Source of the DNA: Alphaproteobacteria bacterium
GTDB taxonomy: Bacteria; Pseudomonadota; Alphaproteobacteria; Micropepsales; Micropepsaceae
NCBI GenBank assembly: GCA_028871795.1
Contig: JAGWMG010000004.1
Coordinates: 186,001 to 250,000 of the forward strand
Direction: 5' to 3'
DNA: 64,000 nt
Shown here one piece after another: positions 3,674 through 51,888 of the stretch. Numbering within the stretch: position 1 is the first letter of the stretch; each line of letters opens with the position of its first letter. The notes below the pieces were generated by a model. It was given only the letters and a program-made list of their open reading frames with translations. It did no database searches and was not told the DNA's origin. The translations under genes and the position numbers were made by a program.

Positions 3674-5253
3674 GCCAGGCTCCTCGCCGGCACGGTTGCG
3701 CCCGGCTCCGCGATCGTGCGTTCGGCCTGTGCCAGCGTCAGGAATGTGCGCTCGCCGTGCGGATCGGTTTGCGGATGATCCGTGCGGAAATGGCTGCCGC
3801 GGCTCTCGCGCCTCGCCAGCGCACCCGCGATCACGAGTTTCGCTCCGGCAGTCATGTTGAGCAGGGCTGGTTCGTGGGCGCCGGCGCGTTCGATTTGGCT
3901 GACGATGCGCGAGGCTTGCGTCAATCCTTCGGCGCAGCGTTCGAGGCCGACGAGGCGGGCCATCGCGTCGCGCAACGCCTGCGGCGGCGGCGGCACGCGG
4001 AAGCTTCCCGGAGTCGGCAGCGTGCCGCGGCCGGCGCGCAGGAGGCCGTGTTCGCGCAAATCCTCTGCCACGCGGGCACCGAACACCAAAGCTTCGAGCA
4101 GCGAATTGGAGGCCAGCCGATTGGCGCCGTGCAGGCCCGTCGCCGCGCACTCGCCCACCGCCCGCAGTCCCTTCAGTGAGGTTCGTCCGCGCGTATCGGT
4201 GGCGATGCCGCCCATGTGGTAATGCGCGGCCGGCACGACCGGGATCGGCTGGGTCGCCGGATCGATGCCTTCTTCGCGGCAGGCTTCGTAGACGGTAGGA
4301 AACGCTTGCGCGAACTTCGAACCCACGGCTTCGCGGCAGTCAAGGAACACTTTGTGGCCGGCGGCGATCTGGCGATGGATGGCGCGGGCGACGATGTCGC
4401 GCGGACCAAGTTCCGCGTCGACATGGATCGCCGGCATGAAGCGGCGGCCCTTCTCGTCGATCAGAGTGGCGCCTTGGCCGCGCAACGCTTCGGTGGCCAA
4501 CGGCACCGGAGAGCGTCCGACGGCAATCGCCGTCGGATGGAACTGCACGAATTCCGGATCGGCGATGACCGCTCCGGCGCGGGCCGCCATGCCCAGGCCT
4601 TCGCCGCGGGTTTCCGTCGGGTTGGTGGTGACGGCATAGAGCGCACCTATTCCCCCCGTCGCCAGGATCACCTCCTGCGCGCGGAAAAGAACCAGCCGCG
4701 CGGACTCGCCAGCGCCGTAACGCGCGAACAGGCCCGCCACACGCCCGTCCTCCATCGCCAGTTCGATGGCGTGAAAACCCTCCAGCAAGGTGACAGACGG
4801 CGCAGCGAAGGCGCGTTCGGTCAGTGCCCGCATCACCGCCGCACCGGCGCGGTCGCCGTTGACGTGAACGATACGCGCAGCCGAATGCGCGGCCTCGCGG
4901 CCCACCGCCAGCGAACCGTCCTTGCGGCGGTCAAACGGCGCGCCGAATGCGACCAGATCTTCGATGCGTGCGGGCGCTTCGCGCGTCACCAGGGCCGCGA
5001 TCGTGGGATCGCAAAGGCCGGCGCCGGCCGCAACCGTATCGGCGGCATGCGCTTGCCAGCTGTCGCCTTTGGCCACCGAGGCGGCGATCCCGCCTTGGGC
5101 CCTGGCGCTCGATCCCGAAACGCCGGGATGGGCGTCGGCCAGCACCAAAGCGGGGAAGGGGGACAGCTTCAGCGCCGTAAACAAACCGGCGACGCCGGCG
5201 CCCAGGATCAACGCGCCTTTGGTCTCGATGATGTTGTCGGCGTGCATGCTCAT
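3670..5253 (-). CDS. nadB: L-aspartate oxidase
   Basis: 527 aa flavoprotein oxidising L-aspartate to iminoaspartate for quinolinate synthesis. An N-terminal Rossmann site, [13 protein letters not shown], is followed by the family's active-site segments: [39 protein letters not shown] and [19 protein letters not shown] helical C-terminal domain completes it. Related to SdhA (also in this window), but it lacks the RSHTV covalent-FAD segment and has [10 protein letters not shown] instead, as expected for NadB. Start at 5253 lies 5 bases after the nadA stop; a GTG 9 bases further upstream is an alternative. The stop overlaps nadC. Confidence 0.95.
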
Positions 5254-46113: not shown

Positions 46114-46170
46114 ATGAAGAACCGCTTAGGAAGTTCGTATGCAGCCGTCTTCGAGACCGCTGCCGGATGA
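46114..46170 (+). CDS. 18-codon leader ORF coupled to the LysE-type gene
   Basis: Starts ATG at 46114 after an AGAGGGAAG ribosome site and encodes MKNRLGSSYAAVFETAAG. Its TGA overlaps the ATG of the LysE-type gene (ATGA at 46167-46170). The exporter gene itself has no good ribosome site, so translation of the leader probably delivers ribosomes to it. No run of a single amino acid suggests classical attenuation. Confidence 0.5.
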   Translation: MKNRLGSSYAAVFETAAG

Positions 46171-46829
46171 ATTACATTGTTCTCATCGTTGCGGGCGTGC
46201 TGATCGGTTTTTTCGCCGCGTTGCCGATCGGAGCGGTCAATTTGATTTGCATACGCCGCACGCTGCAGCGCGGCTCCGGGTACGGTTTCGTATCCGGATT
46301 GGGCGCCGCGCTCGGCGACGGTCTGTTCGCTGCCGTTACCGGGTTCGGTTTCACGGCAATAGGGCAGCTGATCGTCGGCTTTTCAATCCCGTTGCAGCTC
46401 ATCGGCGGTTTGATGCTGTTGTCCTTCGGCATTCGTACCTTCTACACGCCGCCGCCGCCGCGTTTCGACGAAAGACTGACGGCGGCGAACGAGAACGGCA
46501 CCTCTACTCACATACGCGCCATGGTCTCCACTTTCGTACTCACGATTTCCAATCCGCTGACTCTGTTCGGCTTTACAGGGTTGTTCGCCGGATACCTGGG
46601 CGCACTCGCCGGCGATAAACCGAGTTTCTTTGCCGTCGCCATGATCGTTCTGGGCGTGTTCGGCGGTTCGACGCTTTGGTGGCTGACGCTGACCACAGGT
46701 GTCGGTCTTTTGCATGCACGCATCAACGACCGCACCATACGGCTCATCAACGAAATATCCGGCGCCATGATCGCGCTCTTCGGGGTGGCGGTCCTCGGTC
46801 ACCTTGCACTGCATCTTCTGGGGCGGTAG
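46167..46829 (+). CDS. LysE/RhtB family amino-acid exporter
   Basis: 220 aa, six hydrophobic helices. GFFAALPIGAVNLICIRRTL matches the LysE-family N-terminal motif (G-x-x-x-P-I-G-A-x-N), FVSGLGAALGDGLFAAV the second helix, and TISNPLTLFGFTGLFA the second conserved block. Exports amino acids or related metabolites; the substrate cannot be predicted. Translation is likely coupled to the 18-codon ORF upstream. A GGGGCG/CGCCCC hairpin overlaps the stop. Confidence 0.85.
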   Translation: MNYIVLIVAGVLIGFFAALPIGAVNLICIRRTLQRGSGYGFVSGLGAALGDGLFAAVTGFGFTAIGQLIVGFSIPLQLIGGLMLLSFGIRTFYTPPPPRFDERLTAANENGTSTHIRAMVSTFVLTISNPLTLFGFTGLFAGYLGALAGDKPSFFAVAMIVLGVFGGSTLWWLTLTTGVGLLHARINDRTIRLINEISGAMIALFGVAVLGHLALHLLGR

Positions 46830-46982: not shown

Positions 46983-48236
46983 ATGACCTCCGAAATTGCG
47001 GTAATGAACCAACGCGGTGTCGCGCTTGCGGCCGATTCCGCCGTGACCCTGATCGACGGCGGCGTCGTGGTCGTGCGCAACGATCAGCGCAAGCTGTTCA
47101 ATCTCGCGAACGGCCTCCCGCTCGGCGTGATGTTCTTCGGCGTGGCCGACATGATGGGCCATCCCTGGGAGCACTTGATCGAGCACTTCCAGAAGAAGGC
47201 AAGGCCCGGACCGCTGCCGCACGTCCGCGACTACGCGGCGAAATTCACCGGTATGCTCGACAATCTCGAGGAGTTCTTTCCGCGCGAGCGGCAGAAGGAC
47301 GACTACAAGCGGCTGCTGGCCTCGGTGTTTCGCTATGTCTTCCACCTGGCGCAGTACATACGCGAGACGGGCGGGGCCGAACGCGCCCGCGTTTCCGACG
47401 CGGAGATTCTCGAAGAATCCATCGAACACATCTGGCGGGTCTATCAGCAACGCGAGGACGGCAGTTCACGCCCGGATCTCGCGTGTTTTCCGCAGGGCTT
47501 CGCCGCGGTTGTGGCGCGCGATTATTCCGGCACGGTGGACGAGTTGATCGCCTATGGCTTTTCGAACTTCAACCTGAGCCAGACTGCGGTGCTGCGCTTG
47601 CGCGACATCGCGGTGTATTGCGTGGTCAAGGATTTGTTCCTGGAGGACGTGACCGGACTGGTGTTTGCGGGATACGGCACGGACGAGCGCTATCCCGTCG
47701 TCGTCACCTATTTCCTTTCCGCCATCGTCGGCGGGATCGTCAAGCGCGCCGAAGCCAGCGCTGACGCCATCGACGGCGAACTGCGTTCCAAGATCCGCAT
47801 CTTCGCCGACAGTGAAGTCACCAACGCTTTCATCCGCGGCATCGATTACGGGCTGGAACGGCGCTTCTACGGCACCCTGCAGTTGATGATGCAGGGCCTT
47901 GTCGATCATGTGGTCAGCGCCTTCCCGAATGCCGACCAAGGCCAGCGCGAAGGCGTCAGGAAGCAGTTCCAGGGGCATATCCTGCCTCAGTATCTCAACA
48001 CTTTTCACGCCATGATGGAGGACTACCAGCAGCAGACCTATATCAACCCGGTGCTCAGGGTCCTGGAAATCGCCGCCCGCCCCGAGTTGGCGGAAACCGC
48101 ACGCGATCTTGTGGCTCTCAACATCCTCAAAAAGCGTATAATGGCGCAGCACCAGACGGTCGGCGGCGCTATTGACGTCGCCATCATCAGCCGCGAGGAC
48201 GGCTTTAAGTGGTGGACGAAGCAGGGCGGAGGCTGA
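46983..48236 (+). CDS. Proteasome-like Ntn-hydrolase candidate, 417 aa
   Basis: The N-terminus fits a proteasome beta-type start: MTSEIAVMNQRGVALAADSA, with Thr2 exposed after Met removal, Asp18 in the AADS motif and Lys37 in NDQRKLFNL, i.e. Thr1/Asp17/Lys36 against proteasome Thr1/Asp17/Lys33. Then GLPLGVMFFGVADMM resembles the following strand. The last part (VGGAIDVAIISREDG, from 393) looks like the closing GG-strand. Between lie ~300 mostly helical residues not found in HslV or Anbu. No ATPase partner is adjacent. A 112-aa protein follows 2 bases after the stop. Assignment is inference from motifs; a protease or other amidohydrolase role is open. Confidence 0.6.
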   Translation: MTSEIAVMNQRGVALAADSAVTLIDGGVVVVRNDQRKLFNLANGLPLGVMFFGVADMMGHPWEHLIEHFQKKARPGPLPHVRDYAAKFTGMLDNLEEFFPRERQKDDYKRLLASVFRYVFHLAQYIRETGGAERARVSDAEILEESIEHIWRVYQQREDGSSRPDLACFPQGFAAVVARDYSGTVDELIAYGFSNFNLSQTAVLRLRDIAVYCVVKDLFLEDVTGLVFAGYGTDERYPVVVTYFLSAIVGGIVKRAEASADAIDGELRSKIRIFADSEVTNAFIRGIDYGLERRFYGTLQLMMQGLVDHVVSAFPNADQGQREGVRKQFQGHILPQYLNTFHAMMEDYQQQTYINPVLRVLEIAARPELAETARDLVALNILKKRIMAQHQTVGGAIDVAIISREDGFKWWTKQGGG

Positions 48237-48238
48237 CG

Positions 48239-48577
48239 ATGGCCGAGACACGCAAAGCGGGTGGGGCATTACTCGACGGTGCCGAGCGATTCGATCGCCT
48301 GGCCCGCATCGTCAAGGACAACCAGCTCGGCCGCACCAGTACCGGCCCGAGACCTCCCGTCACCGAAGCCTTCGAGTTGAGCCCGGAAGACGCCTGGTCC
48401 AGGAAGTATATGACGCAATGTATCGGGCCGGTTTGTTTCGATCCTGCAGTGGAGCCGCCGGTATTCGCCAAATTCGCCGCACCCGTGGAAGCCGCCGCCA
48501 ATTCGGGCCCGATCGGCTTGGTGATCGGCAAGCCCGTCCGGCGGCGTTCCTGGCTTGGGCGGCTGTTCGGACGGTGA
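48239..48577 (+). CDS. Small hypothetical protein downstream of Ntn-like gene
   Basis: 112 aa, soluble and rather polar, starting 2 bases after the preceding stop with GGGCGGAGG as ribosome site. Contains GGALLDGAERFDRLARIVKD and ends with a basic RRRSWLGRLFGR tail; SRKYMTQCIGPVCFDPAV holds two Cys. No family recognised. The tight spacing suggests that it is made together with, and may bind, the 417-aa protein. A GTG 10 codons upstream is a weaker start. Confidence 0.6.
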   Translation: MAETRKAGGALLDGAERFDRLARIVKDNQLGRTSTGPRPPVTEAFELSPEDAWSRKYMTQCIGPVCFDPAVEPPVFAKFAAPVEAAANSGPIGLVIGKPVRRRSWLGRLFGR

Positions 48578-48666
48578 CGATCCGCGCCAAGCGCGGGATT
48601 AAACTTGCGGCGCTCGCGTCCGGGATGAACTATCGTCCAAAAGTGGAAGTGGATGGAGCTACGGCA

Positions 48667-49215
48667 ATGAGGCGTTTAGGGTTTGTTCTGGCCGCACTGG
48701 TCGCGGCCGCACCGTTCTCGGCGGCGGCAGCCGACAGCGCGCTGAGCCCGGCGGCGAACGCGGCATATCTCGCAGCCTATGCCAAGAAACCAAGTGTCGT
48801 TCAAAAGCCGGACGGTCTGCTATATCGCATCCTGCACAATGGCTACGGCTCGCGTCCTAACCCCCAGGACTATGTGACGGTCTACTACACCGGAAAGCTG
48901 ATCAACGGCACGGTCTTTGACGGCACAGAGCCGGAACAACCGGTGCGCTTCAAGGCCAACAAGTTGATCCCAGGATGGTTTGAGGCACTTTCGTTGATGC
49001 GCGTGGGCGATCGTTGGGAGGTCGTCATCCCGTCCTCGCTGGGGTACGGCGAAAGAGGCACACCGGATGGCTCAGTACCGCCCAATCAGACGCTTGTGTT
49101 CGAAATCGAACTGGTCAAGACGGTGCCGCCGAAGCTGCGGCCGCACGCGCCGGACGAAGATCCTGACAAGATCAACGACAACGAAGATTTGGGACCCGAC
49201 GACAGCGGGCAGTAA
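48667..49215 (+). CDS. FKBP-type peptidyl-prolyl isomerase, exported
   Basis: 182 aa. Signal peptide (1-21, cleavage near AAA-AD), short helical stretch, then one FKBP domain (about 45-148): DYVTVYYTGKLINGTVFDG, VRFKANKLIPGWFEALSLM, RWEVVIPSSLGYGERG, and PNQTLVFEIELVKT. The acidic C-terminal tail (DEDPDKINDNEDLGPDDSG) is unusual. Assists folding of periplasmic or outer-membrane proteins. The GH17-GT2 gene follows after 9 bases. Confidence 0.9.
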   Translation: MRRLGFVLAALVAAAPFSAAAADSALSPAANAAYLAAYAKKPSVVQKPDGLLYRILHNGYGSRPNPQDYVTVYYTGKLINGTVFDGTEPEQPVRFKANKLIPGWFEALSLMRVGDRWEVVIPSSLGYGERGTPDGSVPPNQTLVFEIELVKTVPPKLRPHAPDEDPDKINDNEDLGPDDSGQ

Positions 49216-49224
49216 CGGGTCGGA

Positions 49225-51888
49225 GTGGCGACGGCAGTGTTTGCATCCCTCGTCGGACGGTTGCGATCGCGCTTGAGCGGCGGGACGCTGCGAATCGCGG
49301 TGGCGCTTACTCTGGTCGTGGGCGCCAGTGCGCTGTTCTGGGCGAGCCGCGACTACACGGTGGTAGCGCCCGACTGGGACGGGCTGGTCCGCGGCGTCAC
49401 CTACAATCCGAGCCATATCTTCTCGCAACGCCAGTCGAAGCAGATTTCGCCGGACCGCATCGCCGCCGACATGGCGCAACTGTCCCGCATCACCGGGCAC
49501 ATCCGCACCTATACGGTGTCCGGCGGGCTCGACAAGGTGCCGGAGATCGCGCGCCGCTACGGCTTGACCATTTCCCTCGGCATCTGGATCGGCGCCGACC
49601 TGAACAAGAATGAGCGTGAAATCGACACCGCGCTCAAGGCGATTCTCGCCAACCGCCGGGTGATAGACCGTATCATCGTCGGCAACGAGTCGATCCAGCG
49701 CGGCGATGTCAGCGCGGACCAGTTGAACGCCTATATCGACCGCGTGCGCGAGGCCGTGCCGGGCCGCATCAAGGTCACGACCGCCGAAACCTGGGCAACC
49801 TGGCTGATGCATCCCGAGATCGGCGAGCACGTTGACGTCATATTCGTGCATCTGTTGCCCTATTGGGAGGGAAGGGACGTAAGAACCTCGCTGACCTTCC
49901 TGCAGCAGGCATTCGGCGACGTGCAGGAGGAATTTCCCGACAAGCCGATCGTCATCGGTGAAATCGGCTGGCCGTCGGAGGGGCGTACCAGGAGCGCTGC
50001 CGAGCCGTCGCTCGCCAACGAGGCCTATTTCATCCGCAGCTTTGTCCAACTCGCGTTGGACAAAGGCTACGACTACTACATCATCGAAGCCTACGATCAG
50101 CCTTGGAAGGTCACCAACGAAGGCGTGGTAGGCGCCTATTGGGGCCTATATGACGCAGGCGGCCGTCCCAAGTTCGCATTCACCGGCTTGCTGCGTTCCT
50201 TCCCCGAATGGCGCGAGTTCATGCTCGGGGCGGCCATCCTCACACTGCTGCTCGGGTTGTTGATCCTAAGAAGCATGCCGCGCGTGCGGCAGACGGGCTA
50301 CATCGTTATGGGCGGACTGGTAGCGGGCGTCACGACCGGCCTGATGCTGGTGGTCGACGCCACCACGCTCGATTACATCGATCCGGCCGACATCGCCATG
50401 ATCCTGGCGATGTCGCCTCTGGTATTCCTGGCGTCGACCGTGATCCTGACCGAAGGCATCGAGCTGGCAGCCAGCCTGTGGCGGGTGGAGCGCCGCACGG
50501 TGCGCGCCGCTATTCCGGAGGCAAGCGAACGCGTTTGCGTGCACGTGCCCTGCTACAACGAGCCGTCGGCGATGGTGATCGAAACCCTCAATGCGCTGGC
50601 GCGGCTGGACTACGAGAATTTCGAAGTCATCGTCCTGGACAACAACACGCCCGATCCGGCGACCTGGAAACCGGTGGAAGCGCATTGCTCGATGCTGGGC
50701 CCGCGCTTCCGCTTCTATCATTTCGATCGGGTGCAGGGCTTCAAGGCTGGCGCGCTCAATCTGGCGCTCGAGCTGACCGGTCCCGAAGTGAAGTACATCG
50801 CCGTCATCGACAGCGATTACCGCGTCGAGCCCAATTGGCTGCGGCTGACGTTGCCTTACTTCGCCCAGCCCGGCATTGCGCTTGTGCAGGGTCCGCAGGA
50901 TTACAGCGATGCGTCCGAGAGCGTGTTCAAGGCGATGGCCTACGAGGAATATCGCGGTTTCTTCCACATCGGCATGGTGGAGCGCAACGAGCACGATGCC
51001 ATCATCCAGCACGGCACCATGATGATCGTGCGCAAGAATGCGCTCGCGGAGGTCGGCGGCTGGAGCACCTGGTGCATCACCGAGGATACCGAGCTGGGGC
51101 TGAGACTCTTCGAAGCCGGATACGGCGCCGCCTATATTCCGCAGAGCATGGGGCAGGGACTGATCCCCGATACGCTGAAGGCATTTCAGAGTCAGCGCTA
51201 CCGCTGGGTCTACGGCGCCATGCAGATCCTGAAGCGTCATGCCGGCGCGATCTTCCTGGGGCGGGCGCGGCTCTCCTTGGCCCAGCGTTACCAATTCCTG
51301 AGCGGCTGGCTGCCGTGGATTTCGGACGGCCTGAGCATCGTCGTCACACTGATCGCGCTGGTCTGGACTTTTATGATGTGGGCGGCGCCGCGTTACGTTT
51401 ATGTGCCGATGCCGTTGCTGTCGGCGGCGGCGCTGGCGCTGTTCCTCGCGAAGATTATGAAGACGATGTTGCTCTACCCCCAGAAGGTTCGCTCCGGCTT
51501 GAAAGGAGCGGTGATGGCGTCGGTCGCCGGCTTGGCGCTCACCCATACGGTCGGCAAGGCGACGTGGGCGGGTTTGTTGACCAGCGGAAAGCCGTTCCTG
51601 CGGACACCAAAATGCGCCGATCAGGCGCTGCTCAGCCAAGCTCTGCGCGGGGTGTGGCAGGAGACGGCGCTGTTCGTACTATGCGCCTTTGCAATCGCTT
51701 CCGTGCTGGCCACCGGGCGGCTCGACGATCCCGCCGCGCGGCTTTGGATGGTGATGCTGACAGTGCAGTGCCTGCCGTATGCCGCCACGATTGTCACCGC
51801 GGCGCTGAGCGCGCGCTCCAACGCCAAGGACCGCCAAGCGCCGGACATGCCAGCCGAGACAAAGACCACGCTGGCGAAAGCGGCATAG
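49225..51888 (+). CDS. GH17-GT2 fusion, beta-glucan synthase (NdvB/NdvC-like)
   Basis: 887 aa inner-membrane protein. TM helix (about 23-41), then a GH17 barrel (about 50-325) with acid/base Glu155 in VGNESIQRGD and nucleophile Glu246 in IGEIGWPSEG, four hydrophobic segments (332-425), a processive GT2 domain (about 440-690: DSD at 529-531, TED at 619-621, QRYRW at 657-661) and a C-terminal TM block. Such fusions make or branch beta-1,3/1,6-glucans (Bradyrhizobium NdvB/NdvC, Pseudomonas NdvB). Both catalytic halves look intact. The periplasmic GH17 part probably transglycosylates the chain extruded by GT2. GTG start. Confidence 0.88.
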   Translation: MATAVFASLVGRLRSRLSGGTLRIAVALTLVVGASALFWASRDYTVVAPDWDGLVRGVTYNPSHIFSQRQSKQISPDRIAADMAQLSRITGHIRTYTVSGGLDKVPEIARRYGLTISLGIWIGADLNKNEREIDTALKAILANRRVIDRIIVGNESIQRGDVSADQLNAYIDRVREAVPGRIKVTTAETWATWLMHPEIGEHVDVIFVHLLPYWEGRDVRTSLTFLQQAFGDVQEEFPDKPIVIGEIGWPSEGRTRSAAEPSLANEAYFIRSFVQLALDKGYDYYIIEAYDQPWKVTNEGVVGAYWGLYDAGGRPKFAFTGLLRSFPEWREFMLGAAILTLLLGLLILRSMPRVRQTGYIVMGGLVAGVTTGLMLVVDATTLDYIDPADIAMILAMSPLVFLASTVILTEGIELAASLWRVERRTVRAAIPEASERVCVHVPCYNEPSAMVIETLNALARLDYENFEVIVLDNNTPDPATWKPVEAHCSMLGPRFRFYHFDRVQGFKAGALNLALELTGPEVKYIAVIDSDYRVEPNWLRLTLPYFAQPGIALVQGPQDYSDASESVFKAMAYEEYRGFFHIGMVERNEHDAIIQHGTMMIVRKNALAEVGGWSTWCITEDTELGLRLFEAGYGAAYIPQSMGQGLIPDTLKAFQSQRYRWVYGAMQILKRHAGAIFLGRARLSLAQRYQFLSGWLPWISDGLSIVVTLIALVWTFMMWAAPRYVYVPMPLLSAAALALFLAKIMKTMLLYPQKVRSGLKGAVMASVAGLALTHTVGKATWAGLLTSGKPFLRTPKCADQALLSQALRGVWQETALFVLCAFAIASVLATGRLDDPAARLWMVMLTVQCLPYAATIVTAALSARSNAKDRQAPDMPAETKTTLAKAA

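Follow-up and report, generated by a model that had tools for sequence, protein, structure and literature searches.

A predicted proteasome-like threonine hydrolase, very probably of class PMI-4, and a small putative partner gene directly downstream in an alphaproteobacterial genome

The window analyzed here, that is, the whole stretch of DNA under study, comprises 64,000 nucleotides from a bacterium of the family Micropepsaceae (Alphaproteobacteria; assembly GCA_028871795.1, contig JAGWMG010000004.1, forward-strand positions 186,001 to 250,000), and all window positions below are counted from its first letter. A previous sequence-only reading had drawn attention to an ORF of 417 residues in this window as a possible new proteasome-like Ntn hydrolase, and had overlooked a smaller gene that begins 2 bases downstream of it. 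The features of the locus that are relevant to our analysis are listed below.

46167..46829, + strand: gene of a LysE-type translocator (Pfam PF01810), upstream of the cassette
46983..48236, + strand: gene of the putative PMI-4-type proteasome homologue (the enzyme), 417 residues, with the stop codon at 48234-48236
46986..46988, + strand: codon of Thr2, the predicted N-terminal nucleophile once Met is gone, equivalent to proteasome Thr1
47034..47036, + strand: codon of Asp18, equivalent to proteasome Asp17, kept in 181/181 readable loci
47091..47093, + strand: codon of Lys37, equivalent to proteasome Lys33, kept in 181/181 readable loci
47265..47645, + strand: first helical insertion, approximately residues 95-221 (helices at about 101-215), after H1/H2, according to the secondary structure of the model
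47847..48068, + strand: second helical insertion or extension, approximately residues 289-362 (helices 289-312 and 319-362), between H3 and H4, according to the model
48228..48232, + strand: GGAGG, read from the sequence as a Shine-Dalgarno-like element for the partner gene and located within the enzyme gene, close to its end
48239..48577, + strand: partner gene, 112 residues, starting 2 bases past the enzyme stop
48646..49215, + strand: gene of an FKBP-type prolyl isomerase (Pfam PF00254), downstream of the cassette

The ORF at 46983-48236 translates as had been described and begins with Met-Thr, and all of the sequence elements pointed out in it earlier could be found, namely Asp18, Lys37, the AADS motif, the LGVMFFGVAD strand and the VGGAIDVAII strand close to the C-terminus. 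The predicted Met-Thr start is well supported by comparison of homologues, with no in-frame upstream alternative in 36 of the 50 non-redundant ones.

Structure prediction and a fold search agreed with the proposed Ntn fold. A model of the window enzyme, built from 55 diverse homologues (AlphaFold; mean pLDDT 91.4, pTM 0.88), contained the alpha-beta-beta-alpha sandwich, and its best matches in a Foldseek search of the PDB were proteasome beta subunits (E 2.7e-4). VIA, a second aligner that works on Foldseek's own list of matches, gave a Z score of 16.6 both to yeast proteasome beta5 (5d0v; rmsd 3.4, 179 residues aligned) and to Anbu (5nyw; rmsd 3.3, 194 residues aligned), with residue 2 of the model superposed on residue 1 of either chain. 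Independently of structure, the Thermoplasma proteasome beta subunit ranked first when a profile of the family was searched against the PDB (E 0.005), and in this alignment the N-terminal Thr, the KLF lysine (Lys37) and the GG-IDVAVI--DG strand were paired. The window enzyme itself matched no Pfam family, including PF00227 (Proteasome), which could be detected weakly in 5 of the 55 relatives (best E 2.4e-4). When searched alone against PDB sequences it gave nothing better than E 0.3, and only two chance-level matches were obtained from NCBIfam (E 0.02 and 0.08). Beta-lactamase-like matches of residues 219-271 were weak as well (E 0.02 to 0.7), fell within a strand segment and were rejected as chance. 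We regard it as almost certain that the window enzyme has a proteasome-like fold and belongs to the proteasome-like family.

In the model, helices 62-73 and 81-91 represent the usual first pair (H1/H2) and precede the first insertion. Four core strands (224-230, 239-249, 252-262 and 269-274) are then placed between the helical blocks; they are followed by helices within 278-387, of which about 289-362 form a long extra part, and the C-terminus consists of strands 397-403 and 407-412. The S3/S4 insertion is absent, strands 21-25 and 28-32 being joined via a short turn. The previous description of about 300 helical residues between the N- and C-terminal motifs should thus be revised, as the model has two helical blocks flanking four core strands, whereas the notion that the enzyme is unlike HslV or Anbu agrees with the long helical insertions seen in the model. 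Proteasome beta subunits and Anbu have the same core fold and triad but are about half as long as the window enzyme and lack the two large insertions; Anbu also has a long C-terminal helix H5, whereas the model of the window enzyme ends in strand 407-412. HslV, described in the main text of a recent survey as compact and working with HslU (Fuchs, Alva and Lupas, 2021; PMC8665760), belongs to the same superfamily, whereas the window enzyme has 417 residues with insertions and no ATPase was found beside its gene. Nine neighbors were scanned against Pfam and none was AAA+, as the sequence-only reading had held. In the same genome there is a separate PF00227 match of HslV size (C21:28257-28763), which we read as HslV.

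The claim of novelty could not be maintained. First, residues 1-411 of the enzyme matched positions 1-409 of the 427 in the profile of PHROG 5990 (phrog_5990; E 6.3e-67), a phage family without assigned function, whereas the window copy lies among ordinary chromosomal genes and not in a phage. Second, the enzyme fits PMI-4 (Proteasome homolog with Multiple Insertions 4), one of the 22 new proteasome-like classes found by iterated PSI-BLAST and described in 2021 (Fuchs, Alva and Lupas, 2021; PMC8665760). According to the main text of that paper, PMI-4 is larger than any other of these classes (501 sequences at 90% and 411 at 70% identity), and its members are spread over many phyla, some archaea and phages; insertions after H1/H2 and between H3/H4 are common to PMI-3 and PMI-4, and an S3/S4 insertion marks PMI-5 and PMI-6. 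The window enzyme resembles PMI-4, as characterized there, in its proteasome core, Thr/Asp/Lys triad, both insertion sites and lack of an AAA+ neighbor. Its family likewise shows a wide bacterial spread with some archaea and phages, which separates PMI-4 from PMI-3; titles of homologue records name Planctomycetota, Nitrospirae, Nostocales, Anaerolineae, Bacillus and archaea, many of them MAGs. Because our searches agree with the size and spread stated for PMI-4 in the main text, phages included, we prefer this class to PMI-3. The window enzyme is therefore very probably a PMI-4 protein, an assignment that is feature-based and relies on the class description given in the main text (class representative HDY66466.1). 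It should be noted that the RKHYF tail of most other members is absent in the window's lineage. In the main text, the authors also say that nothing in the genomic context of PMI-4 suggested a function to them, and this text contains 0 matches to the terms operon, downstream, neighbo- and small protein (PMC8665760). At the locus analyzed here, in contrast, a small partner gene follows the enzyme gene.

An alignment of homologues had been proposed earlier as a check on the putative catalytic residues. Thr2 was kept in 182/182 homologous loci, a set that contains duplicates (L001-L016 overlap L027-L048) and of which about 50 are left at 60% identity. Asp18 and Lys37 were kept in 181/181 readable loci, one row reading X at these positions, and Asp18, unlike Thr2 and Lys37, was part of a search pattern behind the homologue set. 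Because of this pattern, we also inspected 13 full-length loci found by profile, 2 from a phylum survey (12 genomes matched) and 11 from a class survey (16 matched, of which G198, G488, G512, G550 and G595 were left out because their matches were partial or weak). T, D and K were in place at the N-terminus in 13/13 of them, including the window itself and two loci whose partners are identical to those of loci already in the set. This conservation supports the view of Thr2, Asp18 and Lys37 as catalytic residues, and the window enzyme is likely to be an active hydrolase.

The partner of the window enzyme showed no match in Pfam or NCBIfam. When its gene was compared with that of L027, codon positions 1/2/3 differed 21/23/61 times over 112 codons, and comparison with two further relatives gave 24/24/56 and 21/20/62 differences, also over 112 codons; as far as these comparisons go, the codon pattern is that of a protein under selection. 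A short ORF on the same strand could be found directly 3' of most homologues, often overlapping the enzyme stop. By a strict rule (ATG or GTG start at -30 to +60, Shine-Dalgarno-like sequence and 30-200 codons), a small ORF was identified in 40/50 non-redundant homologues vs 63/280 control ORFs, the latter being other ORFs of at least 200 codons from the same loci, collected by a crude longest-ORF rule, mutually non-independent and in some cases maybe not genes. Among the ten homologues missed by the rule, inspection revealed a plausible short ORF in L088, L090, L094, L099, L115, L129 and L168 and no convincing one in L024, L067 and L137. In L137, a viral contig, an ORF of 347 residues with a hydrophobic N-terminus follows the enzyme in place of the small partner and is a possible alternative partner. 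The figure for the 13 profile-found loci was weaker: the strict rule identified the ORF in 6, a count that takes in the window and two already-known partners, and by eye there was a partner candidate in L209, L211, L213, L218 and L219 and none in L187 and L215.

Comparison of Rhizomicrobium with Parvularculaceae partners by hhalign gave a P of 0.29, and partners of different lineages do not appear to form one detectable sequence family. We also searched for motifs in 45 partners, one per representative and with equal random starts (L024, L067, L099, L137 and L168 were excluded beforehand). The score was 132.0 at width 8, compared with 112.0-127.9 in 16 shuffles, and 191.7 at width 11, compared with 151.1-171.2 in shuffles. 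One motif common to all partners was nevertheless rejected, as the signal exceeds the shuffles and yet is not universal. By eye, an aromatic-basic-aromatic theme seemed to recur (REWQKKFNP and EEYQRAFFP; DAWSRKYM in the window). In many alphaproteobacterial partners, the C-terminal tail is basic and then hydrophobic, and such tails may resemble those of proteasome activators. When the enzyme and partner of L057 were folded as one chain, in which a glycine took the place of the stop codon between them, the enzyme part was confident and most of the partner was below pLDDT 60, helices 482-510 (about 71-82) and 553-568 (about 70) being higher; no docking was seen in this single-chain model. As modeled, the partner looks largely disordered. 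When the open-licence PMC literature was searched for partners, roles in defence and later work on PMI-4, no listed title or abstract start concerned the pair, which is weak evidence.

The distribution of both genes was then compared over 60 genomes of the window's genus, apparently Rhizomicrobium; the genome of Rhizomicrobium electricum contains one of the homologues (L045). The enzyme was present in 26 of them and the partner profile gave a match in 27. All of the enzyme-bearing genomes (26/26) had the partner adjacent and on the same strand, a presence count that is partly circular because the rows of the partner profile were probably drawn in part from these very genomes. On the other hand, no partner was found in 33 of the 34 enzyme-lacking genomes, an absence that is not circular, and the remaining one (G010) had only a fragment (33 positions, E 2.4e-5). 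The partner was also present in all 23 aligned loci of the genus group (the window and L027-L048).

The chromosomal site of the pair in this genus is recognizable by its flanking genes. In 21 of the 22 loci compared in the genus, the FKBP gene was found no more than 1.3 kb past the enzyme stop, and in L039 it was found at 5.1 kb. The LysE gene lay at most 300 bases upstream in 9 of these loci and at a distance of 0.9-8.6 kb in 10, and 3 loci showed none, so that the upstream side of the cassette has changed more. Of the 34 genomes without the enzyme, 15 showed the neighboring glycosyltransferase gene, and the site was examined in 10 genomes lacking the enzyme. LysE and FKBP adjoin in 9/10, separated by 76-213 bases (as measured from BLAST matches) with neither cassette gene intact between them; no LysE was present on the piece examined in the tenth. 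Thus, the enzyme and partner genes come and go together at the LysE/FKBP site. In G010 (L193, G010:C46), a partner fragment of about 30 residues lies between LysE and FKBP at approximately 4625-4711 on the reversed strand and the enzyme is gone, so that this fragment is likely a deletion scar. The glycosyltransferase gene (window positions 49225-51888) encodes 887 residues with a weak match to glycosyl hydrolase family 17, below the Pfam cut-off, and a glycosyltransferase family 2 domain, perhaps a beta-glucan synthase; each of the 15 genomes searched that lack the enzyme contained a homologue of it.

The enzyme is patchily distributed, occurring in 12 of 397 genomes of Pseudomonadota and in 16 of 387 genomes of the window's class. 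Homologues were found in 13 phage records and 173 stretches of viral contigs; a scan of viral contigs with the single window sequence as query found nothing. The contexts were read in five of the 13 phage records, and in these five the copies occupy mostly cargo-like places. The enzyme is the last gene, after a peptidoglycan hydrolase, in Streptococcus phage Javan85 and the next-to-last gene, followed by a 55-residue ORF, in satellite Javan103; it lies between a methylase and a holin in a Providencia phage, beside a holin in a Stenotrophomonas phage and among structural genes in a Porphyromonas phage. An E. coli prophage has the enzyme gene between the antiterminator Q gene and a DNA-methyltransferase gene, on the opposite strand. 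Among 5426 complete E. coli genomes, 9 showed a match that covered at least 80% of a near-identical copy from a viral contig. In E. coli strain H3 (L185, 7308-7457), a 49-codon partner ORF lies 3' of the enzyme and is lacking in the RefSeq annotation; other small partners may have been missed by annotation too.

On the whole, we are inclined to interpret the locus as a two-gene cassette, in which a threonine hydrolase is accompanied by a dedicated substrate or regulator encoded directly downstream. A functional pairing of enzyme and partner as such appears fairly probable, and the chances of the partner being a substrate or a regulator are about even. It had previously been suggested that the enzyme could be stand-alone or differently regulated. 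Although an ATPase is lacking among the nine neighbors, it is improbable that the enzyme stands alone, because a small partner gene accompanies it. In the proposed mechanism, methionine aminopeptidase would remove Met1 and free Thr2, and Thr2 would attack an amide bond with the support of Lys37 and Asp18, as do Thr1, Lys33 and Asp17 in the proteasome. The modeled helical insertions would alter the surface by which HslV and proteasome subunits make their ring contacts and pore, so that a degradation barrel fed by an ATPase is improbable. The partner, small, largely disordered and containing short motifs, would probably be produced from the same message by co-transcription and may act, through physical interaction, as the dedicated substrate or regulator of the enzyme. 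To our knowledge, control by a dedicated tiny partner is not known for any proteasome relative.

Several other explanations should be considered. Of these, the one that survives best, although unlikely, is a module for phage defence or addiction that travels as cargo, with the enzyme as protease effector and the small protein as inhibitor, trigger or antitoxin. The presence of homologues in prophages, phage satellites and plasmids and the patchy occurrence (12/397 Pseudomonadota genomes) would suit such a module. However, PADLOC-DB 2.0.0 profiles matched 0/7 proteins (the window and six relatives), the pair occupies a largely conserved chromosomal site in the genus (FKBP downstream in 21/22 loci), and the Porphyromonas phage copy is found among structural genes. 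It is improbable that the enzyme acts as an ATP-independent peptidase on unfolded proteins in general and has no connection with the gene downstream. Roles of this kind have been suggested for orphan homologues, as given in the main text of PMC8665760, and both the absence of an ATPase among the nine neighbors and the separate PF00227 gene of HslV size in the genome are compatible with it; the joint presence or absence of both genes across 60 genomes and the higher frequency of a small ORF behind the enzyme gene than behind control ORFs argue against it. We consider it quite improbable that the enzyme resembles connectase in joining or swapping peptides, as a ligase or transpeptidase for which the small protein would be the donor or acceptor. 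Connectase acts on a specific substrate and would in this respect be similar to the window enzyme as proposed here; a short peptide-like partner is also present beside most of the enzymes. The same main text describes connectase as a proteasome-fold ligase (PMC8665760). However, connectase lacks H1/H2 and has a two-helix insertion between S3 and S4 according to that text, whereas the window model has H1/H2 and no S3/S4 insertion. Finally, a catalytically inactive scaffold like the proteasome alpha subunit might be read from residue 53, by eye the oxyanion glycine (proteasome Gly47), which is G, N or D in the homologue alignment, but is highly improbable given that T2, D18 and K37 are kept throughout.

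The interpretation that we prefer, a hydrolase paired with a dedicated small protein, may be extended to the whole class. It seems somewhat probable that PMI-4 is not a group of orphan peptidases but a two-gene system, in which an ATPase-free threonine hydrolase is accompanied almost everywhere by its own tiny disordered protein in a mobile cassette. Such a cassette would move via phages, satellites, plasmids and chromosomes, and the partner would serve as specific substrate, inhibitor or targeting factor. As the main text of the 2021 paper gives no context for PMI-4 (PMC8665760), the co-inherited partner is a first functional handle that makes this open question directly testable. If the partner were a substrate or a switch, a proteasome-fold enzyme could be specific without an ATPase, and this specificity, if true, would bear on the evolution of ring-shaped proteasomes from simpler enzymes.

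In six loci (L188, L189, L190, L024, L090 and L092), the enzyme is located near multiubiquitin and/or ThiF-type genes. Genes of both types are annotated in L024 and L188-L190, and the ThiF-type gene in L090 and L092 was called via similarity to that of L024. The following Rhizobium plasmid stretches contain ubiquitin-like genes.

L188, 5001-11175: Rhizobium plasmid stretch with ubiquitin-like genes
L189, 5001-11157: Rhizobium plasmid stretch with ubiquitin-like genes
L190, 5001-11176: Rhizobium plasmid stretch with ubiquitin-like genes

A ClpP-type subunit gene is also near the enzyme in these three plasmids. A general link between the enzyme and bacterial ubiquitin-like cassettes was rejected as a family-wide rule, since no class-wide co-occurrence could be observed: Multi_ubiq was found in 15/387 genomes and the enzyme in 16/387, and the only genome with both had them on different contigs. 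What this branch (Rhizobium, L024, L090 and L092) does offer is the occurrence of ubiquitin-like conjugation genes together with a proteasome-like enzyme, partly on plasmids. The reading frame of the enzyme, whose gene starts at 5001, is interrupted in L188, a plasmid of Rhizobium leguminosarum, and in L192, a Hyphomicrobiales plasmid, and intact in the related plasmids L189 and L190.
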